Shown here in pieces: positions 5,651 to 35,437 of a stretch of DNA of 64,000 nt (positions within the stretch are counted from its first letter, which is position 1; every line of letters starts with the position of its first letter). The notes below the pieces were generated by a model. It was not told the origin of the DNA, ran no database searches, and saw only the letters and a list, made by a program, of their open reading frames with translations. This stretch comes from Xiamenia xianingshaonis (GTDB taxonomy: Bacteria > Actinomycetota > Coriobacteriia > Coriobacteriales > Eggerthellaceae): positions 868,001 through 932,000 of the forward strand of contig NZ_CP072829.1 of assembly GCF_017945865.1 (NCBI RefSeq), read 5' to 3'. Both the position numbers and the translations under genes were made by a program.

Positions 5651-5662
5651 ATCGATCACCCC

Positions 5663-5697
5663 ACAAAAATGACCCCTGCGTATATACAGGGGTCATT
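5663..5697 (-). terminator. Rho-independent terminator upstream of the terminase genes
   Basis: Perfect 11-bp arms at 5668-5678 and 5687-5697, loop of 8 bases, followed on the minus strand by TTTTTG. It separates the early-type genes from terminase, a likely early/late checkpoint. Confidence 0.8.
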
Positions 5698-5719
5698 GTC
5701 CGCACCCGTCACACGGCGC

Positions 5720-6392: not shown

Positions 6393-6405
6393 TTCAACCA
6401 CCTCG

Positions 6406-7797: not shown

Positions 7798-7798
7798 T

Positions 7799-8370: not shown

Positions 8371-8375
8371 GGCAA

Positions 8376-8747
8376 TCACATCGCATTGCGCACGTCCGCC
8401 CATTCGCGCCCTATCTGGTCGCGTATGGAGTCCGCCCGCTTCTTGTGGAACAGGATCGCCTCGTAGTTCGCATCGAAGGCGGCGTCTGCCAGCGAAAGCT
8501 CGTACTCGATGTCCGCAAGCTCGGGGTTGCCGCGCACAACGGCGTCGATCATTGAAACGGGCGTCTTTCGCTCCTCGCGCTCGGCAACCGTAAGCTCGGC
8601 GCGGCGCACCTTGTAGTCGCGCGTCAGCGCGCACACCCGCTCCTTCAGCGGCACCATTTCGTTTATGCATGAATACGCGCTCACAAGCGCGTCCTGCAGC
8701 TGCGTCTGCAAGTCCGCTCCGTCCTCGAACAGAAACCGCTCATCCAT
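8376..8747 (-). CDS. Phage hypothetical protein
   Basis: 123 residues starting MDERFLFEDGADLQTQLQDAL. It is acidic and almost wholly helical in prediction by eye, with long charged runs (LTVAEREERKTPVSMID, ILFHKKRADSIRDQIG), and may form a coiled coil. No catalytic motif. Its start overlaps the stop of the DnaC-like gene, so it is translated with the replication genes. I do not recognise the family. Confidence 0.6.
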   Translation of the reverse strand: MDERFLFEDGADLQTQLQDALVSAYSCINEMVPLKERVCALTRDYKVRRAELTVAEREERKTPVSMIDAVVRGNPELADIEYELSLADAAFDANYEAILFHKKRADSIRDQIGREWADVRNAM

Positions 8748-9417: not shown

Positions 9418-10111
9418 CGACGCCCCCTTTCGCCGCATCCTCGCCCCGCGCCCAGTTGGCGACGGCCGCCTTCCACTTGGCCATCTTGTTCTTGCCGACC
9501 ATCCAGCCCTTGGACTCGTAGAAGTTCACGAAGCGCTCGGCATCGATCGCATAGCCCCTCTCGGCTGCATACGCCGCAACCTCCTCGACGGTCGGCGGCG
9601 TGAAGCGCGGCCTTAGCCGCGCACCGCTATCTCTGGTATTCAAGTCTTCAGTCTTACAGTCTTTAGTCTTTAGTTGCTTAGCGTTCGCAGTGCGTTTGCA
9701 CGCGTTCGCATCCGAATCGTCCTTCGACCAGCGGGTTTTGGCCGCCTCGCTTGCCGCCTTCGACTTCGCGCTCGCGGCGAGCAATGCCTCCTCCGCGCGC
9801 CTCGACGTCACCTGTAAGCACGGATCGTCGCCGACGACGCCCATAAGCCCAAGCTCGCACATCGAGCGCATAAGGGCTTCCATGTCCTCGCAAGGAACTT
9901 GCATGCAGCCGCACAGCACGCGCATCGAATCGGAATACCGGGCGCTTCCCGCGTCCGCATCGGCAAGCCTCACGCTAAACGGTCGCTCGTATTTGTATAT
10001 CTGCTCCAGCACGTACCAGTACGCATCCACGGCGACGCTCCCGTGCTGCATGCGCAGCACGGAAATCCTGCCGTCGGTGGAGGCGTCGCTGTCGTGCTTG
10101 AACCACTCCAC
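9383..10111 (-). CDS. Phage replication initiator (DUF4373/Lin1244-like)
   Basis: 242 residues from a GTG at 10111 (VEWFKHDSDASTDGR...), preceded by AGGCGGTG. The N-terminal 100 residues have the WFKHDSDA... and AYWYVLEQIY pattern of the phage replisome-organiser winged-helix domain. The middle is a Lys/Thr-rich low-complexity linker (KTRWSKDDSDANACKRTANA onwards). The C-terminal part has FVNFYESKGWMVGKNKMAKWKAAVANW, seen at the end of many phage DnaD-like initiators. It should bind the phage origin and recruit the DnaC-like loader encoded next. Confidence 0.82.
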   Translation of the reverse strand: MEWFKHDSDASTDGRISVLRMQHGSVAVDAYWYVLEQIYKYERPFSVRLADADAGSARYSDSMRVLCGCMQVPCEDMEALMRSMCELGLMGVVGDDPCLQVTSRRAEEALLAASAKSKAASEAAKTRWSKDDSDANACKRTANAKQLKTKDCKTEDLNTRDSGARLRPRFTPPTVEEVAAYAAERGYAIDAERFVNFYESKGWMVGKNKMAKWKAAVANWARGEDAAKGGVDAKNSEYAGAF

Positions 10112-12320: not shown

Positions 12321-12674
12321 TCATTTCAGGACGGCCGTCGTGAAGCCGTCGGCCTTGGATCTGCCGCACTTGAATCTGATGTCGTGCGGGTTTTGCTCCA
12401 TTGCGATGCGCGCGAAGCAGGGGGCGTAGGCGTTCGGCACCTTGCACAAAAACTTCTCCCGCATCGCCTCGATGCAGAAGTTCGCGCGGGCATGGCCCTT
12501 GGCCGCCGTCGCATCGCGTGCGCACTGCTTGAAGTAGAGCCACTCGAAGTAGTGCAGCGCCGCCCAGCGCCTCGCATCCGCCATCAGCTTCGCGCCCTCG
12601 TCCCATTCGTCCGCAAACGCCATGCGCATCTGGTTGTCGGGCGCATCGCTTACGGGATGGTGCTCAACGCTCAT
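12321..12674 (-). CDS. Phage hypothetical protein
   Basis: 117 residues from ATG 12674, which overlaps the stop of the RuvC-like gene (ATGA). The open frame continues upstream but only as a shadow of that gene. Aromatic-rich helical core (RRWAALHYFEWLYFKQCAR) and a Cys-containing C-terminal part (HDIRFKCGRSKADGF). I do not recognise it. The position in the recombination module suggests a DNA-metabolism accessory. Confidence 0.55.
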   Translation of the reverse strand: MSVEHHPVSDAPDNQMRMAFADEWDEGAKLMADARRWAALHYFEWLYFKQCARDATAAKGHARANFCIEAMREKFLCKVPNAYAPCFARIAMEQNPHDIRFKCGRSKADGFTTAVLK

Positions 12675-13186
12675 AGCGCACCGACCTCCCTCAAGTAGTA
12701 AAGCCCGTGGAGGAACGCGGAATACAAGTGCTCCGCGGTCGTCTTGGGAGCGTCCGCTATCATGTGGCCGCCGTCGTAGTCGCGCACGAGCTTTACGGCC
12801 ATGGCTTGCGCGTCTTGCCTTGTCGCTGATCTGAGGGGGCTCTTCTTGCTCCTGTGGGAAAGCACCGTCGGCGCGTCTTGCCAAACCACGTTCTCGCCGT
12901 CCAGCGCCTTGTCCAAATACCCGCAGGTGTAGGGAGTCTTGTAGGTAAAGCAGTTGTTGCGCGTGCCGTAGTGGACGAAATCCTCAATCACCACGGCGTC
13001 GCGCGGCTTGTCGGCCATCCAGGCCACCATCGCCGCCTCGATCGTGCGAAGCCTTTTGTGCAGCGCATCCAGCCCTGCGCCCTTCGGCTGCGCTGTCTTC
13101 ACGGTCTTTGCGGAAAGCACGCGAAGCTCGTCCATGTACACAAGCCCCGTGCTTGCGATTCCCGGGTCTATGCAGATGATCCTCAC
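12671..13186 (-). CDS. RuvC-like Holliday-junction resolvase
   Basis: 171 residues from GTG 13186 (an in-frame TTG lies at 13192). The RNase H-like fold is visible: first acidic residue in IICIDPGIASTGL (about residue 7), second in DAVVIEDFV (about 68), and a C-terminal AEHLYSAFLHGLYYL helix where the last metal ligands normally sit. It would resolve branched intermediates before packaging. It sits between the excisionase-like gene and an unknown small gene, 13 bases after the former. Confidence 0.8.
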   Translation of the reverse strand: MRIICIDPGIASTGLVYMDELRVLSAKTVKTAQPKGAGLDALHKRLRTIEAAMVAWMADKPRDAVVIEDFVHYGTRNNCFTYKTPYTCGYLDKALDGENVVWQDAPTVLSHRSKKSPLRSATRQDAQAMAVKLVRDYDGGHMIADAPKTTAEHLYSAFLHGLYYLREVGAL

Positions 13187-13199
13187 GCGCAATCACCGC

Positions 13200-13469
13200 C
13201 TAGACCTTCACCGCTTGCTCGTACTCGGCCACCGCCGTGCTTACAGTTGCGCAAGCGCTCCTCAAGCTCGCAAGCAGGTTTCGCGCCGCCTCCGCTCGCA
13301 TGTCTGCCTCGCTCGGCTTCTCCGCATCGTCGTAGGGGATTCGCCACCGCGTCCCGCCCAGCTTCTCCGCTTGAGGAATCTGCCCGTTTACCAGCATCCG
13401 CCGCACGCTTTGTGGGTGCAGCCCCATCACTTCGGCATACTCGTTGGCGTCCAGCATCCTTCTCGTCAT
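13200..13469 (-). CDS. Excisionase-like helix-turn-helix protein
   Basis: 89 residues. The N-terminal part MLDANEYAEVMGLHPQSVRRMLVNGQIPQAEKLGGTRWRIP is a winged MerR/excisionase-type (HTH_17) domain. The rest is a helix of small residues that may dimerise. By family and position it could direct excision by the integrase or regulate early genes. Start ATG 13469 is 8 bases from AGGTG; another ATG at 13473 is in a different frame. Confidence 0.75.
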   Translation of the reverse strand: MTRRMLDANEYAEVMGLHPQSVRRMLVNGQIPQAEKLGGTRWRIPYDDAEKPSEADMRAEAARNLLASLRSACATVSTAVAEYEQAVKV

Positions 13470-13487
13470 TCATTTCTCACCTCGCTT

Positions 13488-13721
13488 TCATGCGCCTGCG
13501 CCCACAGGGCATACACGTCCGACAAGCTCATCCAGCGGCACGTCGTAGAAGATTGCCAATCGCGTCGCCGCATCCAGGCTCATGCCGCATTCGGCGTTCT
13601 CGTACTTGCAAATGGTGTTCGTGGCGATCCCCGTTGCCTGTGCAACGTCGGACTGCTTCACATGCCTAAGAGCGCGCAGCATGCGCAAGTTTGCGGCGAT
13701 TTTCTCTCGATCACTTCTCAC
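13488..13721 (-). CDS. Cro-like XRE regulator
   Basis: 77 residues from GTG 13721, which follows GGAGGAGG; the open frame upstream runs through the operator region and is not used. The protein is a bare XRE helix-turn-helix (LRMLRALRHVKQSDVAQATGIATNTICKYENAECGMSLDAATRLAIFYDVPLDELV) without a protease or oligomerisation domain, as in Cro-type proteins. It is the first gene of the long minus-strand operon, divergent from the 13927 regulator. It probably binds the shared operators to favour lytic growth. Confidence 0.8.
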   Translation of the reverse strand: MRSDREKIAANLRMLRALRHVKQSDVAQATGIATNTICKYENAECGMSLDAATRLAIFYDVPLDELVGRVCPVGAGA

Positions 13722-13926
13722 GGTTCCTCCTCCCTCGTCTGTAAAACTGCTCATATTTGCCGTATAATGAAATCTGGTACGGCAGATGGGGAATACCATC
13801 CCTATACGTATTTATCATACGTGACTGGGATGAATAATCAATGATAATGGGAATTATCATCCCATATTGTTGTTACATCTGTATAATGATTCTTAATCGT
13901 CAAGCCGCAAGACAACCTGCAAGGGG
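13722..13926. promoter_or_regulatory. Lysogeny control region with divergent promoters and operators
   Basis: A perfect 20-bp palindrome lies at 13841-13860 (ATGATAAT, GGGA spacer bases included, ATTATCAT). A leftward promoter is seen as TTGATT (13836-13841) and TATGAT (13814-13819), 16 bases apart, on the minus strand; the palindrome overlaps its -35. A rightward -10 TATAAT lies at 13882-13887. The AT-rich character contrasts with the GC-rich genes. Two TGGGAT/ATCCCA arms (13827-13832, 13858-13863) bracket the palindrome. This is the switch between the repressor-integrase and the early operon. Confidence 0.7.
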
Positions 13927-14337
13927 GTGAAAATGGATACGACGGAGATCAAGATGCCTCGCGATGAGTTCAACAAGATGGTAGGAGAGAGGATCAAGCA
14001 AAAGCGCATCGAAGCCGGCTATACGCGCCTCCCGCTTTTCGCCGAGGAGAAGCTGGGCATAAAGCCGGACACGTACCGCAGATACGAAATGGGCACGGTC
14101 GCCCTGTCGCTCGAACTCGCATGGCGCATAGCCGACGTCCTTGAGATGACGTTGGATGAGCTCGTCGGGCGCACGTTCGCAAGCAAGCTGGTGATCAGCG
14201 ACGACCTCGACCCGATCGAGCGTCACATCCTTGAGCGTTTCCGTGGTCTGGAAGCAGAAGACAAGATCGATGTGTACAACAAGGTCGAATATTTTATCGT
14301 CAACCTAGAGGAAGGAGGCCAAACGAAAAACGAATAA
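13927..14337 (+). CDS. Prophage repressor-like XRE protein
   Basis: Frame of 136 residues, first Met at 13933 or slightly earlier depending on start. The N-terminal XRE helix-turn-helix spans about residues 18-70 (RIKQKRIEAGYTRLPLFAEEKLGIKPDTYRRYEMGTVALSLELAWRIADVLEMTLDELVG), followed by a short helical tail (LDPIERHILERFRGLEAEDKIDVYNKVEYFIVNLEE), presumably for oligomerisation. It lacks a LexA-like peptidase domain, so induction would need another mechanism such as a cleaving protease or an antirepressor. It lies between the operators and the integrase on the + strand, as CI-type repressors do. Confidence 0.75.
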   Translation: MKMDTTEIKMPRDEFNKMVGERIKQKRIEAGYTRLPLFAEEKLGIKPDTYRRYEMGTVALSLELAWRIADVLEMTLDELVGRTFASKLVISDDLDPIERHILERFRGLEAEDKIDVYNKVEYFIVNLEEGGQTKNE

Positions 14338-14355
14338 CTCCACCTGAAAAAAGCA

Positions 14356-14389
14356 ATGCCACCGAAGATTTGGACGTCGCCGGTGGCAT
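14356..14389 (+). other. Stem-loop between repressor-like gene and integrase
   Basis: ATGCCACCG (14356-14364) pairs with CGGTGGCAT (14381-14389). There is no T run after it, so it is more likely an attenuating or processing hairpin in the repressor-integrase transcript than a full terminator. Confidence 0.45.
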
Positions 14390-14434
14390 CGATAAAGTCC
14401 CCTCAGATCAATGAAAGGACAGGTGCATTCTAAC

Positions 14435-15622
14435 ATGAGCAAGGGCACCATCTACCCGCTTGAAGATAAACCTAAAGGCAAATGCCGCAAATGGAAGCTA
14501 CAAGCCTACAACGGCAGAGACTTAGCTACCGGCAAGTACAAGCGCATCTATCGAACCGTAGAGGGCACCTACACCCAAGCGCAAAAGGAATTACGACTCC
14601 TGTTGGGTGAGATAGAGAAGGGTAAGGTTGCGAAGAAGAGATGTGACCTCTTTGTCGATTATGCTGACAAGTGGCTGGAGCAGCGCAAGCTAATCCGCGA
14701 ACATGCAACATGGTCAAAAAACGTTGACCATGTGAAGTGCGCGAAGCTTCACCTCGCAGATGCCCGCATGTCCGAAATCACTCCTCAAGTCATCGAAACG
14801 GTCTACAGAAAGTTACTTGATGGCGAGTCCCCAAGCGGGCGTAAGCTTTCCGGCACCTACGTCGAATGCATTGCACGAACGCTCCATAAGCTGTTCAGCG
14901 ATGCCATAAAAGACGGAGTAATCGCCATCAACCCGTGCGACGACGCCGAAAAGCCAAAGAACGACACACCAGAAAGAAAAGCTCTTCCCACTTCCAGCAT
15001 ATATGAACTGATCGAAAAGCTCGACCCTCGCCAGCCTACACAGCTTGTGGTTCTTCTGGGCATAAAGGCGGGCATCTGCCGTGCCGAGGCGCACGGTCTT
15101 TCATGGGGCGACATTGATGGCGACTGCATCCATATTCGCCACAATTTCGATGAGGGCGGCAATCTGAAAACCACCAAAGTGAAAAAGCGCACGCGCACGC
15201 TTCCGCTCACCGACTCCGTGAAAGAAGACCTGAAAGCTGCGCGCACCCATCTCCAGGCATTGTTCGATCGCTACAACAAAAAGACGATGCAGATGCTCGA
15301 ATCCAAGGGCGTTGAGATTAAAAAGTCTGATCTGCTTCGCATCACCGACGAGACACCTGTCATATGCGATGGTCATGGCAATCGCTTGCTGCCGCATGCG
15401 TCTTCGCAATGGTGGACGCGGCATCGCTCCGAACTGGGTTTTGACGATTGGACAATCCACGACATGCGTCACAGCTATCTGTCGGAATTGGCGCGGAGGA
15501 AAATACCTATTAAGGTTCTTCAGGAGCTCGCTGGTCACGAGAAGGGAAGCACCACCATGGATATTTACCTTCACGCCAACGACGAAGACAAGAGAAAGGC
15601 AGTTGCCGTAGTCGATTGGTAG
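14435..15622 (+). CDS. int: Tyrosine-type site-specific integrase
   Basis: 395 residues from ATG 14435 (AGGTG nine bases upstream); an in-frame ATG at 14411 has no clear ribosome site. The N-terminal AP2-like arm-binding domain (KWKLQAYNGRDLATGKYKRIYRTVEGTYTQAQKEL) and SAM-like core-binding domain precede the catalytic domain. Catalytic residues: Arg in AGICRAEAHGLSWGDI, HDMRHSY (His-x-x-Arg), LAGHEKGST (His) and the tyrosine nucleophile in MDIYLHAND. It recombines phage and host att sites; it lies 190 bases from tRNA-Val, the presumed attachment site. Confidence 0.95.
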   Translation: MSKGTIYPLEDKPKGKCRKWKLQAYNGRDLATGKYKRIYRTVEGTYTQAQKELRLLLGEIEKGKVAKKRCDLFVDYADKWLEQRKLIREHATWSKNVDHVKCAKLHLADARMSEITPQVIETVYRKLLDGESPSGRKLSGTYVECIARTLHKLFSDAIKDGVIAINPCDDAEKPKNDTPERKALPTSSIYELIEKLDPRQPTQLVVLLGIKAGICRAEAHGLSWGDIDGDCIHIRHNFDEGGNLKTTKVKKRTRTLPLTDSVKEDLKAARTHLQALFDRYNKKTMQMLESKGVEIKKSDLLRITDETPVICDGHGNRLLPHASSQWWTRHRSELGFDDWTIHDMRHSYLSELARRKIPIKVLQELAGHEKGSTTMDIYLHANDEDKRKAVAVVDW

Positions 15623-15648
15623 GGATAATCAGGCATATCAAGAGCAGA

Positions 15649-15684
15649 GGGGGCGATGCGAAAATTCGCATCACCCCCTTCGTT
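15649..15684 (+). terminator. Terminator of integrase gene
   Basis: GGGGG-C-GATGCGAA and its near-complement form a long stem (15649-15678) with one mismatch, followed by TTCGTTTTG. It is 26 bases after the integrase stop. Confidence 0.7.
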
Positions 15685-15697
15685 TTGCGTCTCTCGG

Positions 15698-15758
15698 TTT
15701 AACTCCAATTCACTCCAAAAATGCAAACCTTGGGAACAATTCACTCTTTTTTAACTCC
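15698..15758. repeat. Possible integrase arm-type sites
   Basis: TTTAACTCC occurs at 15698-15706 and 15750-15758, and CAATTCACTC at 15706-15715 and 15737-15746, in opposite order. The repeats lie between the integrase gene and the tRNA that serves as core att site, where arm-type sites are expected. Confidence 0.4.
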
Positions 15759-15771
15759 TGGCCTCAGAATC

Positions 15772-15805
15772 AAAGAAAAAGGTCAGAGCAAATAACGCTC
15801 TGACC
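15772..15805 (-). terminator. Terminator of tRNA-Val
   Basis: Perfect 9-bp arms 15781-15789 and 15797-15805, followed on the minus strand by TTTTTCTTTG. It lies just 3' of the tRNA. Confidence 0.85.
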
Positions 15806-15814
15806 TGCTGTTTC

Positions 15815-15889
15815 TGGTGGTCGCTACAGGATTTGAACCTGTGACCCCCGCCGTGTGAAGGCGATGCTCTCCCGCTGAGCCAAGCGACC
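15815..15889 (-). tRNA. tRNA-Val (anticodon CAC), prophage attachment site
   Basis: The 75-nt sequence folds as a full cloverleaf: acceptor GGTCGCT/AGCGACC, D arm GCTC-AGCGGGA-GAGC, anticodon loop TTCACAC with anticodon CAC, T arm with GGTTCAAATCC and an encoded CCA end. It reads GUG codons. The tRNA faces the prophage with its 3' end, so the phage att core probably lies in the T-arm/acceptor half and the insertion keeps the tRNA intact. Confidence 0.95.
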
Positions 15890-24881: not shown

Positions 24882-25019
24882 TGGGAGGAGCTGCTGGGAA
24901 TAAAATAAGTCTATTCTTTGGTTTGGCTAATAGTCGACTAGTTAAAGGCATCCATAGTGGTGCCCTTTCTTTCGAGGTGCTTGACGTTTTAAACTTGCAT
25001 CGAGTTTACGATAGCGATC

Positions 25020-26489
25020 GTGTGCCGAAAGTTGGTGTCAGGAGCCGCTTTGAGACAGAAGCGGCCATTGCCTAGAATCGTTTTTGTGAAAGTAACCGAT
25101 TCGTCAGAAAGGCAACGGCCGCCATGGACACTTTACAGGACAAGGGAACGCTGGAAAACCTTCCGTTTCGCGAGGACGGGACCATCGACGTCAACGAGAT
25201 GATGCGTCGCGGGCTCGAGGCGACGGTCAACCAGATAATGGACTGGCAGGCAGACGAGATCTGCGGCGAGGGCAACCGGCGCAACGGCTACCGCGAGCGC
25301 AGGCTCATGACCGTGCTCGGCGAGATAACGATGAGGATCCCCAAGCTTCGGGAGGGCACCTACTTCCCCGACGAGCTGGTCAGGCCCTACTCGCGCGTCG
25401 ACCGGGCAATGGTCGGCATCGTGAAGGAGGTCTACGTGCGCGGCCTGTCCACCCGCAAGATCGAGAAGGCCGCCGACGCGCTGAAGTTCGGCTCGCTGAG
25501 CCCCTCGCGCGTCTCGCGCATGACCGCCGACCTCGACGAGGAGGTCGCGGCCCTGAACGCATGCCGCTTCGACGGAACGGATTTTCCGTATTTGTGGCTC
25601 GACGCCACCTACCTCAACTGCCGCGACGAGGGCCATGTCCAGTCCAAGGGCGTGGTCACCGCCATAGCGTGCGGCGAGGACGGCTCGCGCCGATTCGTCG
25701 GATTCGACGTGGCGGGCACCGAGTCTGCGGTCTCGTGGAAGGCGTTTTTGAGGAGCCTGCGCAAGCGCGGCGTCAAAGGCGTCAAGTGCGTGGTCTCCGA
25801 CGACCACGCAGGATTGGTCCAGGCGATAGCCGAGGTGTTCCAGGGGGCGGCGTGGCAGCGCTGCATCGTCCACCTCGAGCGCAGCGTGGCGGGCTGGTTC
25901 TCCAAGAAAGAGGACAAGGCCGTCGCCGCGGCGGCCATGAAGGCCGTCTTCGCCGAGCGCGACCCGCAGCTCGTGCGCGCCGCCTACCGCCAGGCGACGG
26001 AGCGCATCGCACAGCTCAAGGGGCGTGCGGGCGAGCTTCTCGAGGACGCCGAGGCCGACGCGCTGGCCTACCTCGACTTCCCGTACGGGCACCACGTCCG
26101 CCTGCGGACGAACAACGTGCAAGAGCGCGCCAACGGGGAGATAAAGAGGCGGACCAAGGTCGTGGGCGCGTTCCCGTCGGTCGGCTCGATGATGCGCCTG
26201 GTGGGGGCGGTGCTCACCGACGTCAACGAAGAGTGGCTCCATGCGCAGTTCATGGATGCGGCATCGCTTAAGGACGTAGTTAAGTCTGAGACAAACCTTG
26301 AACCTATTCCCGATGAAATCATAGAGAAGGCAAGGATATGCGTTACAACGGCAATCGAAGCTAAACTCGGAAGGGCGGCATGATGCCAATAGTGTAATAT
26401 GCAGTTGGTTCTGGGCAGCGCCGCGTTTGCTCGGGCGGGCCAAAGCCCGCACCTCCCAAGCGCAGTCATGACACCAACAATCGGCACAC
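25020..26489 (+). mobile_element. IS256-family insertion sequence
   Basis: The ends are 21-bp inverted repeats beginning GTGTGCCGA (25020-25040 and, inverted, 26469-26489) with two differences. The 1.47-kb element contains one transposase. No clear target duplication is seen between the flanks (ATAGCGATC left, TACCGGCGC right), suggesting rearrangement or an old insertion. Confidence 0.85.
25124..26383 (+). CDS. IS256-family transposase
   Basis: 419 residues, standard length. The DDE triad can be placed at WLDATYLNCRDEG (first Asp), VVSDDHAGLVQAI (second Asp) and ANGEIKRRTKVVGAFPS (Glu). The C-W/H signature of the family is in AAWQRCIVHLERSV. Residues 1-90 form the DNA-binding part. The gene is intact and has its own inverted repeats, so the element may be active. 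Confidence 0.95.
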   Translation: MDTLQDKGTLENLPFREDGTIDVNEMMRRGLEATVNQIMDWQADEICGEGNRRNGYRERRLMTVLGEITMRIPKLREGTYFPDELVRPYSRVDRAMVGIVKEVYVRGLSTRKIEKAADALKFGSLSPSRVSRMTADLDEEVAALNACRFDGTDFPYLWLDATYLNCRDEGHVQSKGVVTAIACGEDGSRRFVGFDVAGTESAVSWKAFLRSLRKRGVKGVKCVVSDDHAGLVQAIAEVFQGAAWQRCIVHLERSVAGWFSKKEDKAVAAAAMKAVFAERDPQLVRAAYRQATERIAQLKGRAGELLEDAEADALAYLDFPYGHHVRLRTNNVQERANGEIKRRTKVVGAFPSVGSMMRLVGAVLTDVNEEWLHAQFMDAASLKDVVKSETNLEPIPDEIIEKARICVTTAIEAKLGRAA

Positions 26490-26565
26490 TACCGGCGCAT
26501 TTGTACAACTGAGTCAAACGTTATATTCCTGGTGCTCTAATCAGGCGACGTGACTGACGGCGTAG

Positions 26566-28371
26566 TTACGAGTCACGACGAATCGCATAGAATTCGAGCA
26601 CTTCCGCAATAGCGGGAGTCGATGCGGCGCCAATCACATCTTCCGTAAAGAGGTTTTTGGCAACAATGCTTTTGGCCTCCGCGGCTTCTTCGTCATTTAA
26701 AGAGTTGAATTTCTCCCACCACTCCCGTGCAAGGGTGTCTTTATATGTAAAGCGGTGAATAATGAATCGCTCGGGCATCCAGAGTATTTTGTGGAATTCG
26801 TCGAGGTCTTTTCCGAATGCTTCCTCGAAGAATGATTTACCGCGTCCGATTTTCCCCTTGGTCGCGTTTAGAACTGCTTGGATTGTGCGGATGAATTTAC
26901 GGTTCCAATGTTCACCGATGAAATCCCGGTTTCTGAAGTATTCACCATCGGTAATCGGATGATACTTCATCGGGAAGGAGTAGATAACAGTATCAAGCTC
27001 CTCACAAAGCTCAACATTTATTTTCAACCTAATGTATAGATCATCGGGTGTGTCTTTGAAGTTGTAGAGCAGGTAATTAGAGAGGTTACCAATACCGTGT
27101 TTCGCTGCAAGTTTGATCGCCCTAACGTAGATATCTCTGTCCTTGATATCATCGAAAGCGATGCGTAGCGGTCTGATGTTGATCTCGGCAAGCTTCGCCA
27201 TCTTTGCGTCATTAGCCAATCTCGCATCTAGACCCTGGTTGAAATCAACGCATCTACGTCTTTTCGTTGGCTTAAAGTGCCGATCGTATAGGGGCTTCAC
27301 GTAGCTGTCAAACTCCAAAAGGGCTTCTTTCGTGGCGGTAGCAACGTAAAGGCAGCCGCGTTTTTCGCGTTCAATATAAAACTCGGCAAGCTCCTCTTCT
27401 TTCAAGCGGCGCGAGAGATTGTCGTAGAGTCGGATTAGTTTTCTCTTGTAGGCTCGATCGTTAACTCCATTTTTCAAGTTTCGTAACGCGACGTCATATT
27501 CGCTTTCTGGAATGTACGAAGCACCTGCTTCAAAACCAGCGGCCTTGATATCATCAATTATGCGATTGAAATGTCTCGATGCGAAAACGTTGTTGTCCAT
27601 CAGCAACAGATCGCGTTTAGGGCCAAACACCCTGTCCACTTCCTCGATTTTGCTTTTGACCTCAATGTAGCTGCAATACTTGGGCTCAAGTGTGGGTACG
27701 GCGCAGAATTCACAATGGCGTACACAGCCGCGCGTCATGTAGGCAAAGTAAGCGTCGTTTGCTGGATAAACGTAATCGATTTCCTCAAGGATCGAATAAT
27801 CGAGGGGCAGGGTATCTATGATGGTTTCGTCGCCTGGGTCAAGGTCACCTGGCTTGTCGAGCAAGCCTCTGTGTGGCATAATCCCAGTTTCCTCGTACAT
27901 CTCGTCAGCAAGTAAGGTAGCCGCAACTCCGCCCACCATGATGTTTTCGGGCTTGCAGAAATACTTCACGAATTCAATTGTCTCGATAATCTGCTTCCAG
28001 TAGAACGTGAACATAGTCGTTACGCCCACCCGGTCAAATTGCGGATAATCCTTTTTCATGTACCGGGATCTGTACTTTTTCAGTAGAGAACGCGCTTTGG
28101 TGCCCTCAAAATCCGGAATCACATCAAGGGGTGCCAGCTTCCCTGTCTTAATATGTTCCACCAGCGACGACTGATACTTGCCAAGCGCCAAATCTCCGAG
28201 TTCTTCGAGGTATTCTTCGAATAGGAGTTCGGCTGCAAATCTCTTGAGGTCCCCCTTATAGAACCTAACGTCATCGCCCCGTCGACGGTAGTAAGTTGCG
28301 ATTTTCATCAAGCCCATTGGAGGATACTTGCTCTTGTAATTCGGCTCGACGAGAAGAATCTTCCTACTCAC
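26566..28371 (-). CDS. B12-binding-type radical SAM protein (member of island cassette)
   Basis: 601 residues from GTG 28371, which overlaps the stop of the GHKL gene; an in-frame ATG at 28410 has a badly placed ribosome site. The N-terminal stretch KILLVEPNYKSKYPPMGLMKIATYYRRRGDDVRFY looks like a cobalamin-binding (Rossmann) half-domain. The radical SAM cluster motif is GCVRHCEFC (Cys 216, 220, 223, CX3CX2C), followed by a TIM-barrel region (LLLMDNNVFASRHFNRIIDDI). The last 200 residues are an extra helical domain. Substrate unknown. Translational coupling with the ATPase argues that it works in the same system. Low-GC sequence unlike the host genes. Confidence 0.8.
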   Translation of the reverse strand: MSRKILLVEPNYKSKYPPMGLMKIATYYRRRGDDVRFYKGDLKRFAAELLFEEYLEELGDLALGKYQSSLVEHIKTGKLAPLDVIPDFEGTKARSLLKKYRSRYMKKDYPQFDRVGVTTMFTFYWKQIIETIEFVKYFCKPENIMVGGVAATLLADEMYEETGIMPHRGLLDKPGDLDPGDETIIDTLPLDYSILEEIDYVYPANDAYFAYMTRGCVRHCEFCAVPTLEPKYCSYIEVKSKIEEVDRVFGPKRDLLLMDNNVFASRHFNRIIDDIKAAGFEAGASYIPESEYDVALRNLKNGVNDRAYKRKLIRLYDNLSRRLKEEELAEFYIEREKRGCLYVATATKEALLEFDSYVKPLYDRHFKPTKRRRCVDFNQGLDARLANDAKMAKLAEINIRPLRIAFDDIKDRDIYVRAIKLAAKHGIGNLSNYLLYNFKDTPDDLYIRLKINVELCEELDTVIYSFPMKYHPITDGEYFRNRDFIGEHWNRKFIRTIQAVLNATKGKIGRGKSFFEEAFGKDLDEFHKILWMPERFIIHRFTYKDTLAREWWEKFNSLNDEEAAEAKSIVAKNLFTEDVIGAASTPAIAEVLEFYAIRRDS

Positions 28372-29965
28372 AGATCTTATCCTCGATAGCTTTAACAAGT
28401 CGCTCGGCATCCTTAGGCGCTTTCAACCTTATTACCTCGTAGATGGTTGTTACAAGCTTTCTTTCACTCCGCGTGAACGAAGAATATTTTGGTCCAGCTG
28501 CACGAGGAGTCACCTTTCCTTCTTTGGGCCTATTCTTCGTATCCGTACCCTTCCTGTGTGCTTTCTTTGCCTCGCTCACTCCTTTTTCGGCGTCTTTTTG
28601 AATGCGGTCAATGAGCTCAGCTTTAATACGATCGTCGGCATTTTTGCTCTGCAGTTTTTCGAGCTTTTCCTTTGCCTTGACCGCTTCCTTTTTGATCTTG
28701 CTGAGCTTGTCAGTTGCTTCCTCGCGCTCTTCCTGGCTGATGAATGCCTGCTCATCGTCTTTCTTCTTGAAATCGCCTTTATCTTGCTCGGCTTTGACAA
28801 TCTTCTTTCTGGCTGCGTTGGCGTCAGAGCCGAGGCGATACAGATCATATAGCGACGTCTCGAAATATGCTTTCAACATCTTTTCGAGGCTTACGCGTCG
28901 CCCGTTCTCGTTGAAGTAGTCTCTTTGTGAATCCGGAATAAGATCTCTGGATATGGCGAATACTTCGCCAACGAAATACCTGTTGCCGCGCTCTTCGCGA
29001 TGGAATTGATCCAACGTTGATTCATCGCCAATCTGGATATTCTCTTTTCGTAGCCGTAGGCAGCTCATTGGATTGTTCTTCTTGTCAATCACCCCTTTGA
29101 AATTCGATGCGCCGAACCACATCCAGGCAACGAGATCTCCTGCATCGTCGAAGAAATCGTGGAATTCGACATCATGAATCACGTCGTCACGATTTCCGCT
29201 TCGGTCGCGAATATCGCAAGTGTATTTCTTGAACAGCTGTTCTCCATCAAGAAATACCTTGTATTCGTCAATTGGGTGACCCACTTCTTTTGCGTGGTTG
29301 TGCACCTTGGTCCTAAATAGGAAAGTCGATTGGTAGGGAATAGGAGCTACAAAAGCGAGGTAATCCCTTATACGCGCCGAATCGAGCAGATCGCTGTTCT
29401 CCTTGTTCACGTCCTCCAGGAGAACCTTGAAGTAATGACTATCAATATCGGCGCCGTCGCAAACTGGCTTTTCAGCGAAAGAGTAGATTTGTTCGAGCAC
29501 TTCGGAAGCAGTGTGCTTTTCTCCAAGATTGTTCTCGTTTAATAGGTCCCTCATGCGAATGGCATCGCATGCGAGTATTGACTCGACGCTTTCGCCTTTT
29601 GCCTTGGAGATGAAATGCAGCTTGCCGCAATATGCAAGACCTGCAAGACGTCCTATGCCCCTAAAGCCTTTATCTACGCCAAGCTCTTTTCCCGAATCGG
29701 CGATATTGCCCAAAACGACCTTAAAGTCTTCAGCTTTTACACCAAGGCCGTTATCGCGTATCTCGATAGACCTCGCCCTAGCGTCAAGAAAGATCTCGAT
29801 CGCACCTTCACCGATTTCGAGAATGCCGGTCTTTTCTGCGCTATCTATAGAGTCACATGCGTTTTGGATATACTCTCGGTATATCACTCTCGAGTCTTTG
29901 TACATTCCCGTGGTGAGGTTCTCGATGATATTCGCTCCGAACACGTATTCTGAACTTGTAGTCAT
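28364..29965 (-). CDS. GHKL (Hsp90/MORC-like) ATPase (member of island cassette)
   Basis: 533 residues from ATG 29965 (AAGGA seven bases upstream; GTG at 29971 is the alternative). The N-terminal Bergerat ATP-binding fold: N box YREYIQNACDSID (residues about 29-41), G1 IRDNGLGV (69-76) and G2 KGFRGIGRLAG (99-109). This is followed by an S5-like domain (about 190-330) and a long Lys/Glu-rich coiled coil (about 370-480, QDKGDFKKKDDEQAFISQEE and later). The architecture recalls Hsp90, MORC and MutL-type clamp ATPases. It lies between HerA and the radical SAM gene with 10 bases or less between stops and starts. Confidence 0.85.
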   Translation of the reverse strand: MTTSSEYVFGANIIENLTTGMYKDSRVIYREYIQNACDSIDSAEKTGILEIGEGAIEIFLDARARSIEIRDNGLGVKAEDFKVVLGNIADSGKELGVDKGFRGIGRLAGLAYCGKLHFISKAKGESVESILACDAIRMRDLLNENNLGEKHTASEVLEQIYSFAEKPVCDGADIDSHYFKVLLEDVNKENSDLLDSARIRDYLAFVAPIPYQSTFLFRTKVHNHAKEVGHPIDEYKVFLDGEQLFKKYTCDIRDRSGNRDDVIHDVEFHDFFDDAGDLVAWMWFGASNFKGVIDKKNNPMSCLRLRKENIQIGDESTLDQFHREERGNRYFVGEVFAISRDLIPDSQRDYFNENGRRVSLEKMLKAYFETSLYDLYRLGSDANAARKKIVKAEQDKGDFKKKDDEQAFISQEEREEATDKLSKIKKEAVKAKEKLEKLQSKNADDRIKAELIDRIQKDAEKGVSEAKKAHRKGTDTKNRPKEGKVTPRAAGPKYSSFTRSERKLVTTIYEVIRLKAPKDAERLVKAIEDKICE

Positions 29966-29975
29966 CGCCACGTCC

Positions 29976-31667
29976 TTATTGCTTGAATTGTTTGTAAATC
30001 GGTTTTGGGAACCGAATCTTCAATAACGTTCGGAACACAGGATTCTGTATGAGATAGTCACCTTGCTCCAATCGTGTAAGCATGTTGCGATATGTGCTCG
30101 GCAGGCTCTTATAATCCTTTGTTTCGGTTTCGATTGAATTGGTTCTGCCGTAGGCATGAGTTGCACAGTTGCCAGTCACTCGGTCATTAATGTTCGATCT
30201 GAATTGTTCGGCTGCAAACAGAACGACGCCTAGCGATCGTCCTCGTTCGGTAACGTCGAGTATCTGTCTCATGATTGGTGATGTTTTCGGGCTGTCCTTG
30301 GAAGCGTACTTATTTAGCTCGTCAATGAAAACTACAATACGCGCGGGAGGCTTGACGCTGTCTTCGTCATCGAATTCCCCAAGTTTCAGGTTGTATATTG
30401 TTCTAATGACGTCACCGAACACAAATGCCTGTTTGTCTTCTCCAAGCTTGGCCACGTCAATCACGTAAACATCGTTATTTCCAATCTGCTTCAATTCTTC
30501 GGCGAGCCGGCATTCGGCACGTTCGTAATTAACTCGATTTGCGAACATATCATCTTGTATCGCCTTATGGAAAACGCGGCTGAATTTCTTCCAGCTCTGC
30601 ACAGTGATCGATCCATCTTTCTTTCTGCCGCCAGCGCGCAATTCGGCAAGCTTATCCTCGAATTCGCCCCATGTCTCGATGCCTTTAAAATCGGAATCGT
30701 CACAATCCAGCACCTTGCTGATGATCGAGTCCATGGTCATTGTGGTGTCGTCAATATTGGCGAACATCATTTCAATGCTCTCTTTATCTTCACCGTAAAT
30801 AAACTTGTACTTCTTAAGACATTTGCGCCTAACGTAAGATTCTTCTTCATCACGGTCAAGGTAGGTGCTTCGCTTTGCGCGTCCCTTATCTGAATAGGGT
30901 ATGAGGTATCTAACGTGCTTGAACGGCTCGGTTGAAAGTCCCAGGGCATCGTATTCGGCTAATACCTTCTCTCTGGTCCCGTCCTCCTCGTCAAGAAACT
31001 CGTTTGCTTGATCGATGGCCATCAGGTCCTTACCTTTGACGTTGAAGATTACAAAAGCGACGCTATCGTCATCGTTCTCATCAGCATCGTTAATATGTTG
31101 ATCCTGGATTGCCTTCATGAGGAACATCGCATAGGACGTTTTTGAAGCAAGTCCCGAGATGCCAGATATATTCAAATGAGCGCCTTCGGGTCCAAGGATG
31201 AATTTGGAATTCAGATGAACTGGGAGATTGACTTCATCCTGCGTCCCCTCATACATTTTGAGCGAACCACATACAAGCGGGTTTTTAATCCCGCGCAGAC
31301 CAAGCGCAAAAGTGATCTCTTCTTCAGTGGCAAGATAGACCTTGGCGTTGTTGTGGACGGGCGTATACCAGTTGCTATCGTTAAAAGAAACTTTTGCTTC
31401 TACGTAGTTCATACCTACGCGCAGCGTCGGTTCCTCAACGTTCACATCTCCGAAATCGCTTGAGATATAGTTCGTGAGAAAGCTTTGCGCATCTGTGATA
31501 TGGGAAATGTTTTCTACGACTCCGAACGTGAACGAACCGTTAATATGCTCGACTTTGATGACGTCAAATGCCGCGAGCCTTAAATCTTGGTCCGTCCAAA
31601 AACAAAACTTGTCCATCGTGGTCGGGTACTTTTCTGTTGCCAATACCCTGCCTATCAGTTTGCCCAT
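29976..31667 (-). CDS. HerA-like hexameric DNA translocase (member of island cassette)
   Basis: 563 residues. The first 120 residues (MGKLIGRVLATEKYPTTMDKFCFW ... FGVVENI) form a HAS-barrel-like domain. The ATPase core has Walker A GISGLASKT (169-177), Walker B RIVVFIDE (443-450) and an arginine-finger candidate in DVTERGRSLG (about 471-480), the HerA/FtsK pattern. Between them is a 250-residue insertion. HerA proteins work with NurA nucleases to resect DNA, and a NurA-like gene is encoded next upstream, 15 bases away. Confidence 0.88.
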   Translation of the reverse strand: MGKLIGRVLATEKYPTTMDKFCFWTDQDLRLAAFDVIKVEHINGSFTFGVVENISHITDAQSFLTNYISSDFGDVNVEEPTLRVGMNYVEAKVSFNDSNWYTPVHNNAKVYLATEEEITFALGLRGIKNPLVCGSLKMYEGTQDEVNLPVHLNSKFILGPEGAHLNISGISGLASKTSYAMFLMKAIQDQHINDADENDDDSVAFVIFNVKGKDLMAIDQANEFLDEEDGTREKVLAEYDALGLSTEPFKHVRYLIPYSDKGRAKRSTYLDRDEEESYVRRKCLKKYKFIYGEDKESIEMMFANIDDTTMTMDSIISKVLDCDDSDFKGIETWGEFEDKLAELRAGGRKKDGSITVQSWKKFSRVFHKAIQDDMFANRVNYERAECRLAEELKQIGNNDVYVIDVAKLGEDKQAFVFGDVIRTIYNLKLGEFDDEDSVKPPARIVVFIDELNKYASKDSPKTSPIMRQILDVTERGRSLGVVLFAAEQFRSNINDRVTGNCATHAYGRTNSIETETKDYKSLPSTYRNMLTRLEQGDYLIQNPVFRTLLKIRFPKPIYKQFKQ

Positions 31668-31682
31668 TGTTTGCTCCCGTCC

Positions 31683-32849
31683 TTAGAACAAATTCACGAA
31701 ACTATCTGCGCTCATGTAGCGCGATTTTATGAACTTCTCTGTCAGGTATATGGGGTAGATATGGTTAGCCCATCGTGGGTCAGATCCATAGCAAGTTGGA
31801 TTGCGCTCGTTGACTATTGATGCGCTGAGAAGATCGACGAAGTCCGAATCGATACCGTACCCCATTTCGTCTTCTGTAACGAGAATTTTTTCGATCTTGA
31901 CTATCCCATCGAAAGCCGTTCTGGTTCTTTCCTGCTCTCGTATTCGCACATACCAAACAGCATATTTCGTATCGCCCAAGTACGAGTTCGTGTACTCCGC
32001 TACCGGAGTTCTGTGATACAGGGGCAAATCGGCTATAAAGCCCGGATTGGGCTTACCCTTTATATCCATGCAAACTTCTGGGTTGAAGCTTTTCGAAACG
32101 CCTATCACCCAGTTGTAATTGTTCCTAAAACGAAGTCTTTTTTGCTTATCCCCTCGATTATCGACCCGATACTCCAGGGACCCATCCTTGACGAGAATGG
32201 CGTTCTGCCCGAGCTTTCCGTCTCGAACTAACTCGGCAACCATTCGCTTTTCTTGTTCAATCATTCTGTCCTGTATGCAGGCTGTGCCAAGGTCTTCGTA
32301 TTTCACGTCATCATTTCCAGCAGCTTTTGCTGCTTTGTATGGAAGTATCTTGCTGAAGGCACAATGAGCTCTTTGCATTTCTGTACTGTCGTTGATTTTG
32401 CGAACCAATCCCTCGAAGAATCCCGGCCGTCCATCAGGGTCTGCAAGGCCGGGTGCCGCAATGACCATTTCACCAACGTATCGCTCTAGAGACATGCGGC
32501 GGTTTACCCTTGCTAAGCATCCAACACCAATCTGTCCGGCAATGATCGGGTACAAGACGCTTCTATCTCGTGTGTGTAGATAGGCCATGTCGTCAACTTT
32601 GAAAACTCTACGAGATCCGTCCAGAAAATATTTCAGAATCGATGGCTCTTCTGCAAAGCCTTTGCTCTCCAATACGTGCTGTAAGTCGATGTAACCCCGC
32701 TGACGTGTCGTTTCAGCAGTCTTTTGCCATTGGCCATTTGCTTCGCCATGATTGATTACGGATCTGGTATCGGGATCAAGCTGGTACTTTATCGCCTTGT
32801 AACTCTTGCCCGATGTTTCGCGCTCTAGGATAGTCATTATTCTTGACAT
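31683..32849 (-). CDS. NurA-like nuclease (member of island cassette)
   Basis: 388 residues. NurA signatures: LDGSRRVFKVDD at about 76-87 (first catalytic Asp), a second metal site at LVKDGSLEYR (219-228) and the VIGVSKSF strand at 248-255. There is a C-terminal YPIYLTEKFIKSR helix at the place of the usual YP...L..AH element. NurA is an RNase H-like single/double-strand nuclease that docks on HerA. Residues are conserved enough to expect activity. It follows the ribbon-helix-helix gene by 2 bases and precedes HerA. Confidence 0.78.
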   Translation of the reverse strand: MSRIMTILERETSGKSYKAIKYQLDPDTRSVINHGEANGQWQKTAETTRQRGYIDLQHVLESKGFAEEPSILKYFLDGSRRVFKVDDMAYLHTRDRSVLYPIIAGQIGVGCLARVNRRMSLERYVGEMVIAAPGLADPDGRPGFFEGLVRKINDSTEMQRAHCAFSKILPYKAAKAAGNDDVKYEDLGTACIQDRMIEQEKRMVAELVRDGKLGQNAILVKDGSLEYRVDNRGDKQKRLRFRNNYNWVIGVSKSFNPEVCMDIKGKPNPGFIADLPLYHRTPVAEYTNSYLGDTKYAVWYVRIREQERTRTAFDGIVKIEKILVTEDEMGYGIDSDFVDLLSASIVNERNPTCYGSDPRWANHIYPIYLTEKFIKSRYMSADSFVNLF

Positions 32850-32851
32850 AG

Positions 32852-33058
32852 CTATCCACCAGCTTGGCTATCGAGAGAATCGATTACCTCATCTGCAAGC
32901 ATTGAGGTAATCAGAGAGCTCATGCTGACGCAACGGGTATTTGCAAGATTGGCTACCGCTGCTTTCAGCTCGGGAGAAACTGCAACAATAATCCTCTCGG
33001 TCTTATTCGAGTTTAGTAATTGTTGCCGCATGCCTGTTGGTTTAGCGTTGCCATCCAA
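32852..33058 (-). CDS. Ribbon-helix-helix protein (first gene of island cassette)
   Basis: 68 residues. KTERIIVAVSPELKAAVANLANTRCVSMSSLITSMLADEV is a plasmid-type CopG/Arc ribbon-helix-helix domain: a short beta strand followed by two helices. It is the promoter-proximal gene of the cassette and probably an autoregulator of it; it could also be a DNA-binding subunit. An internal ATG at 33031 is an alternative start. Confidence 0.7.
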   Translation of the reverse strand: MDGNAKPTGMRQQLLNSNKTERIIVAVSPELKAAVANLANTRCVSMSSLITSMLADEVIDSLDSQAGG

Positions 33059-33138
33059 TTTGGTATCCTAACTGCAGGATGTATTCATGAGTTATTGTAA
33101 GTATACCTCAAGACTGATGCGCAACGACTCGATGCGTC

Positions 33139-33315
33139 TGAAATGGGTTGGGACGGCGTAACCTTGTTGGGGGTCGCACCCCCTTGATCTCCTACCAACC
33201 CGTTCCGGCCATTCCGGAGTCGACGGCGGCAGCATAGCGCACCTCGGAGGCCGGGTCTTTGACAGCTAAATAGGTTACTCAGATTCTGACTGCCCCGTTG
33301 AGCGGGGCTTTTTTT
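33139..33315 (+). ncRNA. Candidate structured RNA ending in a terminator
   Basis: GGGTTGG (33145-33151) pairs with CCAACCC (33195-33201) and encloses an inner hairpin GGGGGT/ACCCCC (33169-33174, 33178-33183). TCCGG/CCGGA (33204-33208, 33214-33218) forms a third. A terminator at 33292-33315 closes the unit. No gene on the + strand precedes the terminator, so it must end a short non-coding transcript or be part of one element end. The family is not recognised. Confidence 0.4.
33292..33315 (+). terminator. Terminator of the candidate RNA
   Basis: GCCCCG-TTGAG-CGGGGC followed by seven T. Confidence 0.85.
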
Positions 33316-33368
33316 GTTGCCGAATGTCAAATTTGATAGCATTATTATATGGTACTTTTAGGTAATTT

Positions 33369-35260
33369 ACGATACAGTATGAAGGAATGCAGGCCCGGCA
33401 AGGAGACGCCCATGCGCCTCAAAGTGGCCAGATCGTCGAAGTCGACCAGACTGTATGCAATAAAGTCAACGTACGACCCCAAGACCAAAAAGACCTCTTC
33501 GAAGATAGCGGCCAAGCTCGGCACTGCCGAGGAGGCCATGGAGCGCGAGGGCCTTGACTATGACGGCGCGATTGCGTGGGCCCGCGCCGAGATCGCGCGC
33601 ATGACCGAGAAGGAGGCCTTTGACGCGGCCGCCGTGACCATAAGGCTCAGGCCCGCGAAGCGGATGGAAAAGGGCGCAAGACGCCGCGCGAACGCAGGCT
33701 ACCTGTTCCCCGCGAAGGTCCTCTCCGAGCTCGGGCTGCGAGACATGTGCGGCAGGATCGCCGAGGGGCAGGGGTTCGACTTCGACCTCGGGGAGATCGC
33801 CGAGCACCTGGCCACGGGAAGTATGCTCGCCCCCTCGTCGAAGCTCGCCACGTTCAAGTGGTGCCAAAAGCTTATCGAGCCCCCGGCGTTCGCGGAGCAC
33901 CAGGTCTACCGCGCGCTGTCGGTTCTAGCCAAACATTCCGATGCGATCCAGGCCGGACTCTACAAGTCGTCCTCCAAGCTGCGTCGCAGGCGCACGGGCG
34001 TGCTCTACTACGATTGCGCCAACTACTTCTTCGAGATCGGGTGCGCCGACGAGGACGGCGACCGGCGCTACGGCGTCTCCAAGGAGCACCGGCCGAGCCC
34101 GATCGTGCAGATGGGCCTGTTCGTGGACGCCGACGGCGTCCCGCTGGCGTTCCGCATCGCGCCCGGCAACGCGTCCGAGCAGACGACGCTCAAGCCGCTC
34201 GAGCGCACGATCATGGAGGAGTTCGGCGAGTCCAGGTTCGTGGCGTGCACCGACGCCGGGCTCTCCTCGAAGGACAACCGCCTGTTCAGCACCGAGGGCG
34301 GGCGCGCCTTCGTCACGGCGCAGAGCATAAAAAAGATGAAGACAGAGCTGCGCGAGTGGGCGCTCGACCCTGCGGGCTGGAGGCTTTCAGGCTCCGATGC
34401 GGTCTACGACCTGCGCGAGGCCGGCGAGGTCGAGACGTGGGAGCGCGTGCTCCACAAGGAGAAGCGGGCCAAGGACGACGAGGGCTTCGAGCGGCGCTGC
34501 GTCGCCACCTTCTCGTTCAAGCGCATGGAGTACCGGGCCTCCATGTGCGAGCGGCAGGCCGAGCGCGCCGCCGCGAAGGCGGCCAAGGGGGCCAAGGCTG
34601 CCGAGAGGCGCAGCCCCAACGACCCGGCCCGGCTCCTCTGCGTCGAGCATGTCACGGCCGAAGGCGAGCTCGCCGACAGGGCCGTCGCGTCCCTCGACGA
34701 GTCCAAGGTCGCCGAGGAGGCCCGCTGCGACGGGCTCTCGTGCATCGCGACGTCGCTGGAGGACGACCCCGCCGACGTCATCGCCGTGAACAAGCGCCGC
34801 TGGCGGATCGAGGAGTGCTTCCGCACCATGAAGGCCGAGCTCAAGGCCCGCCCGGCCTGCCTCAGCCGCGCCGACGGGATACGCGGGCACTTCCTCACCT
34901 GCTTCGTCGCGCTTTTGGTCTACCGCTTGATGGACGAGCGTCTGGGCCATAAGTTCACCTGCGGGGAGCTGCTCTCCACGCTGCGGGGCATGGACGTGCT
35001 GGAGCTTTCCGGCGAGGGCTGGGTTCCCGCCTATGCTCGCGACGACGTGGCCGACGCACTGCACGACGCGTTCGGATTCCGCACCGACTACGAGATCGTC
35101 ACGAACCGCCAGATGGGCAAGGTGCTCACGGCCGCGCACAGCGCCAAAGTAAGAAGCACCAAAAGATAAACCGGTCTAAATCCCAACAAACAGGCCTGTC
35201 GCCTGGTGTTATGCCGTAAGTTGCCGTTCGCCGGTGTCAAAGACGGGATTACAGTATCGT
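33369..35260 (+). mobile_element. IS1634-type (IS4 superfamily) insertion sequence, tentative ends
   Basis: One intact transposase flanked by short inverted repeats: ACGATACAGTA at 33369-33379 and its near-complement at 35250-35260 (10 of 11 match). The ends are tentative because the repeats are short. It bounds the low-GC cassette on the right. Confidence 0.6.
33412..35169 (+). CDS. IS1634-type transposase
   Basis: 585 residues from ATG 33412 (AAGGAG six bases before). DDE catalytic positions: YYDCANYFFE, CTDAGLSSKDN and RWRIEECFRTMKAEL, the last matching the IS4-type Y-R-E-K box. A low-complexity Ala/Lys insert (AERAAAKAAKGAKAAERRS) lies in the middle. Full length and high GC like the host, unlike the cassette to its left. 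Confidence 0.92.
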   Translation: MRLKVARSSKSTRLYAIKSTYDPKTKKTSSKIAAKLGTAEEAMEREGLDYDGAIAWARAEIARMTEKEAFDAAAVTIRLRPAKRMEKGARRRANAGYLFPAKVLSELGLRDMCGRIAEGQGFDFDLGEIAEHLATGSMLAPSSKLATFKWCQKLIEPPAFAEHQVYRALSVLAKHSDAIQAGLYKSSSKLRRRRTGVLYYDCANYFFEIGCADEDGDRRYGVSKEHRPSPIVQMGLFVDADGVPLAFRIAPGNASEQTTLKPLERTIMEEFGESRFVACTDAGLSSKDNRLFSTEGGRAFVTAQSIKKMKTELREWALDPAGWRLSGSDAVYDLREAGEVETWERVLHKEKRAKDDEGFERRCVATFSFKRMEYRASMCERQAERAAAKAAKGAKAAERRSPNDPARLLCVEHVTAEGELADRAVASLDESKVAEEARCDGLSCIATSLEDDPADVIAVNKRRWRIEECFRTMKAELKARPACLSRADGIRGHFLTCFVALLVYRLMDERLGHKFTCGELLSTLRGMDVLELSGEGWVPAYARDDVADALHDAFGFRTDYEIVTNRQMGKVLTAAHSAKVRSTKR

Positions 35261-35437
35261 CAAAACGATAGTTCAATAGGAGAACGAGTCTCTTTCGACG
35301 GAACATGCACGCTGCTGCCAGTTGCGTGGCCTTCATGCCGGTTCTTCGCAAATTGGTCGTTGAAATCCGGTTGCTTTGAAAATTACCTTAATGATAATGA
35401 ATCGGAATGTTGCCGAAAACACGAAGGGGCGTTTCGT

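Follow-up and report, generated by a model that had tools for sequence, protein, structure and literature searches.

Between positions 26566 and 33058 of a 64,000-nucleotide stretch of the Xiamenia xianingshaonis genome (contig NZ_CP072829.1; the whole stretch is referred to as the window), five co-directional minus-strand open reading frames (ORFs) encode a small RHH-type protein, a NurA nuclease, a HerA-family DNA translocase, an Hsp90-type GHKL ATPase and a radical SAM enzyme (Table 1). Comparison of this cassette with its relatives supports the view that the four enzymes form a conserved, horizontally moving unit. From the sequence we suggest, tentatively and at a little short of an even chance, that the cassette is a mobile DNA-restriction operon acting against invaders, in which HerA-NurA would be the effector, the GHKL and radical SAM proteins would form a control or marking module, and the small gene would be an interchangeable regulator. 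Defence built on HerA is already known; none of the databases and papers that we checked has HerA joined to both a radical SAM enzyme and an ATPase of Hsp90 type.

A scan of genomes with the GHKL protein yielded 75 loci, in which the other three genes were placed by tblastn. The order NurA-HerA-GHKL-radical SAM is kept in 51 of the 55 loci that have sufficient flanking sequence, and the median gaps across the four-gene loci are 11, 11.5 and -1 nt; in the window, the RHH and NurA genes lie 2 nt apart, NurA and HerA 15 nt, and HerA and GHKL 4 nt. The four-gene loci span at least seven phyla, with Bacillota, Bacteroidota, Planctomycetota, Synergistota, Chloroflexi, Cloacimonadota and Gastranaerophilales appearing in their record titles. 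Of the four exceptions, L020 is a remnant, L077 a fragment, and L044 and L061 are of Paenibacillus type. When the search was not anchored on GHKL, the HerA clade was found in 8 of 341 Clostridia genomes, and all eight carry NurA, GHKL and radical SAM genes beside HerA (G326 was the sample centre, and two others hold loci from the GHKL scan); the radical SAM clade is present in 11 of the 341 sampled genomes. In G500 the HerA frame is interrupted by a TGA. The four proteins also diverge together: their pairwise identities correlate with r of 0.87-0.92 (Mantel), a value reached in none of 2000 permutations.

The enzymes are thus found together far beyond the single genome from which the original prediction was made. 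That prediction took all five genes to work as one machine, and gene order, spacing, overlap and co-divergence bear this out for the four enzymes and leave out the RHH-type gene, which has no relative among the 75 loci. Xre or MerR-like small genes stand in its position at several of them, and we therefore regard it as an exchangeable regulator, having rejected it both as a core component and as one half of a toxin-antitoxin pair whose antitoxin should be conserved with its partner.

The distribution of the unit is patchy. None of 39 genomes of the same genus, family and order contains the HerA clade, and among 296 Actinomycetota genomes it occurs in two, the source genome and G305 (E 1.9e-140), the others having general HerAs alone; a housekeeping role for this HerA was rejected on these counts. 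In the HerA tree the window protein is nested among Bacillota (support 98/95). Complete cassettes are present on two predicted viral contigs (L144 and L145) together with integrase, excisionase and helix-turn-helix families, and an unverified record of a faecal phage holds a further one. In Marinitoga camini virus 1 (L224:10936-14762), NurA and HerA are accompanied by a divergent 360-aa radical SAM relative, annotated 'hypothetical protein', on the opposite strand; these genes lie between a repressor and a resolvase gene. Serine recombinases, tyrosine recombinases and a relaxase are among the neighbours of relative loci. No HerA match was found on plasmids in PLSDB at 1e-40, and no DNA match in E. 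coli genomes.

The four enzymes

The identity of each enzyme proposed in the original prediction was upheld, with profiles built from 34-43 relatives apiece. HerA is confirmed by profile, and the motif residues of its Walker A (GISGLASKTS) and Walker B (FIDEL) sequences are invariant in 34/34 relatives. NurA is confirmed by its predicted structure: the best Foldseek matches of the AlphaFold2 (AF2) model are DrNurA (1.5e-11), TM1739 (4.6e-9) and SsoNurA (5.2e-8), all four significant fold matches are NurAs, and the catalytic residues D77, E200, D222 and H363 are invariant in 36/36 relatives. Pfam gave no match for either protein, PADLOC gave HerA only weak HerA-like matches (mad8, 5e-10), and the sole PDB match of the NurA profile, the NurA of the 7f6d complex, is non-significant (0.62). 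The D. radiodurans HerA-NurA of 7f6d is likewise an adjoining ATPase and nuclease with the same folds and catalytic motifs; it is a housekeeping pair without GHKL or radical SAM partners, whereas the present pair is part of a mobile four-gene operon.

The GHKL profile match covers the N-terminal domain of HtpG/Hsp90. The Bergerat motifs of the ATP site shared with HtpG/Hsp90 and MutL/MORC (E/N box, DxGxG and GxxGxG) are present, and E33, N37, D73, G102/G105/G107 and R350 are invariant in 34/34 relatives; the exception among the motif positions is G75, the central glycine of DxGxG, which 10/34 retain. The conserved arginine may occupy the place of the Hsp90 middle-domain arginine. The protein differs from HtpG in its length of 535 aa and in a match limited to the N-terminal part. 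A reading of it as the housekeeping HtpG was rejected, as a longer, separate HtpG-like frame lies elsewhere in the same genome.

The radical SAM gene is annotated from an ATG at 28410, giving a 47-nt overlap with the GHKL gene. The start in its relatives matches a GTG at 28371 (GTGAGTAG), and we therefore prefer this codon, which leaves an 8-nt overlap with the GHKL stop. Both the CX3CX2C motif (C229/C233/C236 in ATG numbering) and a DFNQG motif are present in 43/43 relatives. The AF2 model (pLDDT 92) identifies a cobalamin-type two-domain radical SAM enzyme, which may bind cobalamin: most of the chain aligns with known enzymes, namely MgmA (Z 16.4, root-mean-square deviation 3.6 over 321 residues), AprD4 (16.3), TsrM (14.9), OxsB (14.4) and MiaB (13.9). 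With MgmA, AprD4, TsrM and MiaB it shares the Rossmann plus radical SAM architecture and CX3CX2C; it differs from them in belonging to a DFNQG-motif family of its own, common to the phage family phrog_9298 (E 2.9e-37). The Pfam radical SAM match is below threshold, and a profile search of solved structures found no close relative by sequence. The VIA-align comparison speaks for its listed families alone.

Table 1. Positions of the cassette genes and the flanking insertion sequences in the window
Feature	Position	Strand	Evidence
Small RHH-type putative regulator	32852..33058	-	weak RHH_5 match, E 0.04
NurA nuclease	31683..32849	-	AF2 model pLDDT 87; Foldseek matches to NurAs
HerA-family DNA translocase ATPase	29976..31667	-	profile match to D. 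radiodurans HerA 7f6d, E 2.5e-53
GHKL ATPase, Hsp90 type, charged C-terminal tail	28364..29971	-	Pfam HATPase_c_3 8e-9; profile match to HtpG 2ior, 7.3e-11
Radical SAM protein with a Rossmann (cobalamin-type) domain at the N terminus and a radical SAM barrel	26566..28371	-	motif; AF2 fold; phrog_9298
IS256-family element	25015..26494	+	Transposase_mut 1.5e-99; 29-nt terminal inverted repeats 25015-25043 and 26466-26494
IS1634-family element	33255..35266 (ends approximate)	+	transposase E 3.6e-93; upstream of operon

Neighbouring genes, known systems and relatives in phages

The neighbourhoods of the relative loci point to defence, as the original prediction anticipated. About 8 loci have AbiE-like genes upstream, mostly as AbiEi- plus AbiEii-like pairs (AbiEii 1.6e-92 in L055), and AlbA_2/Schlafen-like genes follow the radical SAM gene directly or slightly beyond it in seven. 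L041 has DdmD-like (6e-38) and DdmE-like (7e-6) genes, and L123 an AbiO/Nhi-like gene. Matches to pVip in the flanks were not counted as viperins because they carry Pfam Radical_SAM and SPASM, two members each, and may be ordinary SPASM-type radical SAM enzymes. In L098, the G305 locus (596-9592), a type IIG restriction-modification enzyme (E 0) and a SocA/Panacea protein accompany a divergent NurA-HerA, and a B12-binding radical SAM gene is present instead of GHKL.

No PADLOC v2.0.0 model matches the set, in keeping with the earlier view that the combination is unnamed, and NurA, GHKL and the radical SAM enzyme have no match to any specific PADLOC model. We found no open-access paper naming these components together (preprints fell outside the search, and a naming after 2023 is possible). 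Several known systems were considered and set aside. The gene beside HerA is NurA, with no DUF4297 or SIR2 match in Pfam or PADLOC, which excludes DUF4297-HerA and SIR2-HerA. DUF4297-HerA, a promiscuous nuclease that is toxic unless controlled, resembles the cassette in joining a HerA ring to a DNA nuclease that needs tight control, and differs in using a PD-(D/E)XK nuclease rather than an RNase H-like NurA and in lacking the two extra enzymes (PMC11291478). Dnd/Dpt was rejected, as none of the five proteins matches DptF, DptG, DptH or DndA-E in PADLOC at E<=1. Such systems, and the repeated 'HerA/FtsK capture' by defence operons, likewise place a HerA-family ATPase in mobile defence operons, and DndB-like genes occur at some radical SAM loci; neither the radical SAM enzyme nor the GHKL ATPase is described there, and the terms GHKL, NurA, Hsp90 and MORC are absent from that paper (PMC10853773). 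MADS was dismissed as well: apart from the weak HerA-domain similarity to mad8 and generic HerA models, the cassette has no other MADS gene and no other mad match.

Relatives of the radical SAM enzyme extend well beyond the cassette, to hundreds of viral contigs (433 relatives). Longer viral forms pair with GHKL, the radical SAM gene preceding GHKL in at least 11 contigs, and most contigs with visible sequence have ParB-like genes, a small restriction endonuclease-like gene and an SNF2 helicase resembling ZorD/DpdE beside the pair. A DpdB/DndB-like gene joins some of these sets (DpdB-like in L161), which are possibly a separate unnamed defence system. In two contigs (L121 and L146) a cyclase-like gene accompanies GHKL and the radical SAM gene. 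Two predicted viral contigs (L155:7125-12591 and L160:7097-12630) carry a type IV Cas operon (Csf1/Cas8, Cas11, Csf2/Cas7 and Csf3/Cas5) that ends with a radical SAM relative and one further conserved gene, about 411 aa long; we found no paper reporting a radical SAM enzyme within a type IV system. Shorter phage enzymes (phrog_9298, about 270-440 aa; L164-L223) often lie near terminase, and a ParB-like gene is near them in 11 of 57 contigs. Given these differing DNA-processing partners in prophages and phages, the GHKL-radical SAM pair looks portable, with the DNA-processing part exchanged.

Some details of these loci are recorded as separate observations. Seven predicted viral contigs (L148, L153, L156, L157, L159, L161 and L162) have two ParB-like genes with the endonuclease-like, SNF2, radical SAM and GHKL genes, in a gene set that varies. 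Downstream of the cassette, five loci (L031, L033, L041, L054 and L055) encode a cyclase-like protein (about 260 aa) next to a second GHKL ATPase; the members of the cyclase-like family that were scanned had no Pfam or PADLOC match. The Paenibacillus-type loci (L044:1-11698 and L061:139-11685) have two other radical SAM genes and a second large GHKL gene directly upstream of NurA-HerA-GHKL; a DndB-like gene precedes the extra radical SAM and GHKL genes in L044, and NurA is split in L061.

What the operon may do

Going by what is known of the family and by the confirmed folds, HerA would form a ring that drives double-stranded DNA into NurA, and NurA would degrade the DNA that it receives. The Hsp90-type GHKL protein may open and close with ATP, licensing or loading HerA-NurA, possibly within a complex of all four proteins. 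The radical SAM enzyme would add a chemical group, most likely to DNA, by which own is told from foreign or the host is protected from the nuclease. GHKL and the radical SAM enzyme together would then be the control module of the translocase-nuclease, a need suggested by the toxicity of DUF4297-HerA (PMC11291478). Since ParB-like, DndB-like and methylase partners recur, a DNA mark seems a likelier product of the radical SAM enzyme than a modified protein, and the ParB-like and methylase neighbours would fit DNA modification. Such a mark would be a new chemistry for discriminating own from foreign DNA, and would give hundreds of viral contigs with a related radical SAM gene a testable function.

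Several observations weigh against this reading. A ParB-like or methylase gene is missing from most four-gene loci, so that support for a DNA substrate is indirect; many phage radical SAM relatives are much shorter; and in L044 and L061 two other radical SAM genes lie upstream in place of the orthologue. The closest solved NurA-HerA works in DNA-end resection, not immunity. Ordinary genes alone occupy many flanks. At a threshold of 1e-10, 135 flank proteins matched 123 PADLOC models against 41 for 135 control proteins, an enrichment that is suggestive only of a defence setting, as it counts redundant models rather than proteins and the control, random regions from some of the same genomes with matches mostly to kinases and generic ATPases, is imperfect and differs in contig type.

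The nearest competitor keeps the defence operon and moves the target: the radical SAM enzyme would act on protein, either maturing NurA, HerA or GHKL or marking an invader protein, with GHKL as chaperone or sensor. The fold neighbours MgmA, TsrM and AprD4 modify protein or small molecules (the RNA-modifying MiaB is also among them), GHKL is Hsp90-like, and a DNA-specificity gene is missing at most loci; against this stand the ParB-like, DndB-like and type IIG methylase genes that recur as neighbours and the short phage radical SAM enzymes present without NurA, HerA or GHKL. On balance we consider a protein target less likely than a DNA mark, yet a strong competitor; if it is correct, the operon would exemplify how a toxic translocase-nuclease might be restrained. 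A wider proposal, which we rate as less probable again, is that GHKL and the DFNQG radical SAM enzyme are a portable immunity module writing or checking a new DNA mark made by the radical SAM enzyme, plugged into HerA-NurA, into ParB plus SNF2, into the cyclase-like gene and, as radical SAM without GHKL, into type IV Cas, with phages carrying a stand-alone writer for evasion.

Could the operon instead serve repair or recombination, with HerA-NurA resecting ends as in Deinococcus and mobile elements carrying it for their own integration or repair? The nearest solved relatives are indeed the resection pair 7f6d, and in one Actinomycetota genome a general HerA-NurA pair lies near SbcCD-like genes. 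The scattered occurrence of the HerA clade reported above, the replacement of partners (by type IIG restriction-modification in L098) and the defence-type neighbours make this improbable. A viperin-like route, in which the radical SAM enzyme makes a small antiviral molecule and NurA-HerA-GHKL acts separately, is very improbable: the barrel aligns with viperins at Z of about 10 only and a cyclase-like gene occurs with GHKL-radical SAM in L121 and L146, whereas the best folds are cobalamin- or MiaB-type enzymes that have an additional domain at the N terminus (Z 14-16) and the PADLOC viperin models do not match the cassette enzyme. Slimmest of all is the prospect of an abortive-infection or toxin-antitoxin unit with RHH as antitoxin and HerA-NurA as toxin. 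The RHH-like gene does stand directly ahead of the operon and DUF4297-HerA, a related complex, is toxic (PMC11291478), but relatives have Xre/MerR-like genes or no gene there, which fits a regulator better than a matched antitoxin.

Insertion sequences and other surroundings

What had been said of the setting was confirmed in part. The five minus-strand ORFs were verified, they form a patch of 47% GC (guanine plus cytosine; fraction 0.46-0.48) where most of the flanking DNA lies at about 0.60-0.67, and an insertion sequence lies on either side, the IS256 element (transposase ORF 25124-26383) immediately downstream and the IS1634 element (transposase ORF 33349-35169) upstream; neither interrupts the cassette ORFs. 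The tRNA integration scar proposed nearby was not recovered, there being no second copy of the 3' end of tRNA-Leu (37421) or tRNA-Val (15815) within the window.

A genome of the same genus (G002) is colinear with the window solely from 36061 rightwards, which places the cassette in a variable region; with colinearity stopping at 36061, no clean empty site could be defined from this comparison. A search for RNA families recovered tRNAs alone, and promoter-like sites at the operon are no more frequent than in shuffled sequence. Phage-like genes at 12321-15889 (RuvC-like, Xre repressor and a tyrosine integrase at 14411-15622) end at tRNA-Val and are a probable prophage distinct from the cassette; the integrase is about 11 kb from the cassette, with genes of normal GC between. 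A second IS1634 copy, itself interrupted, lies at about 1283019-1286462 in the genome, and when the stretch 33094-35292 is compared with it, the window pieces 33094-33253 and 35248-35292 occupy swapped sides of that copy.

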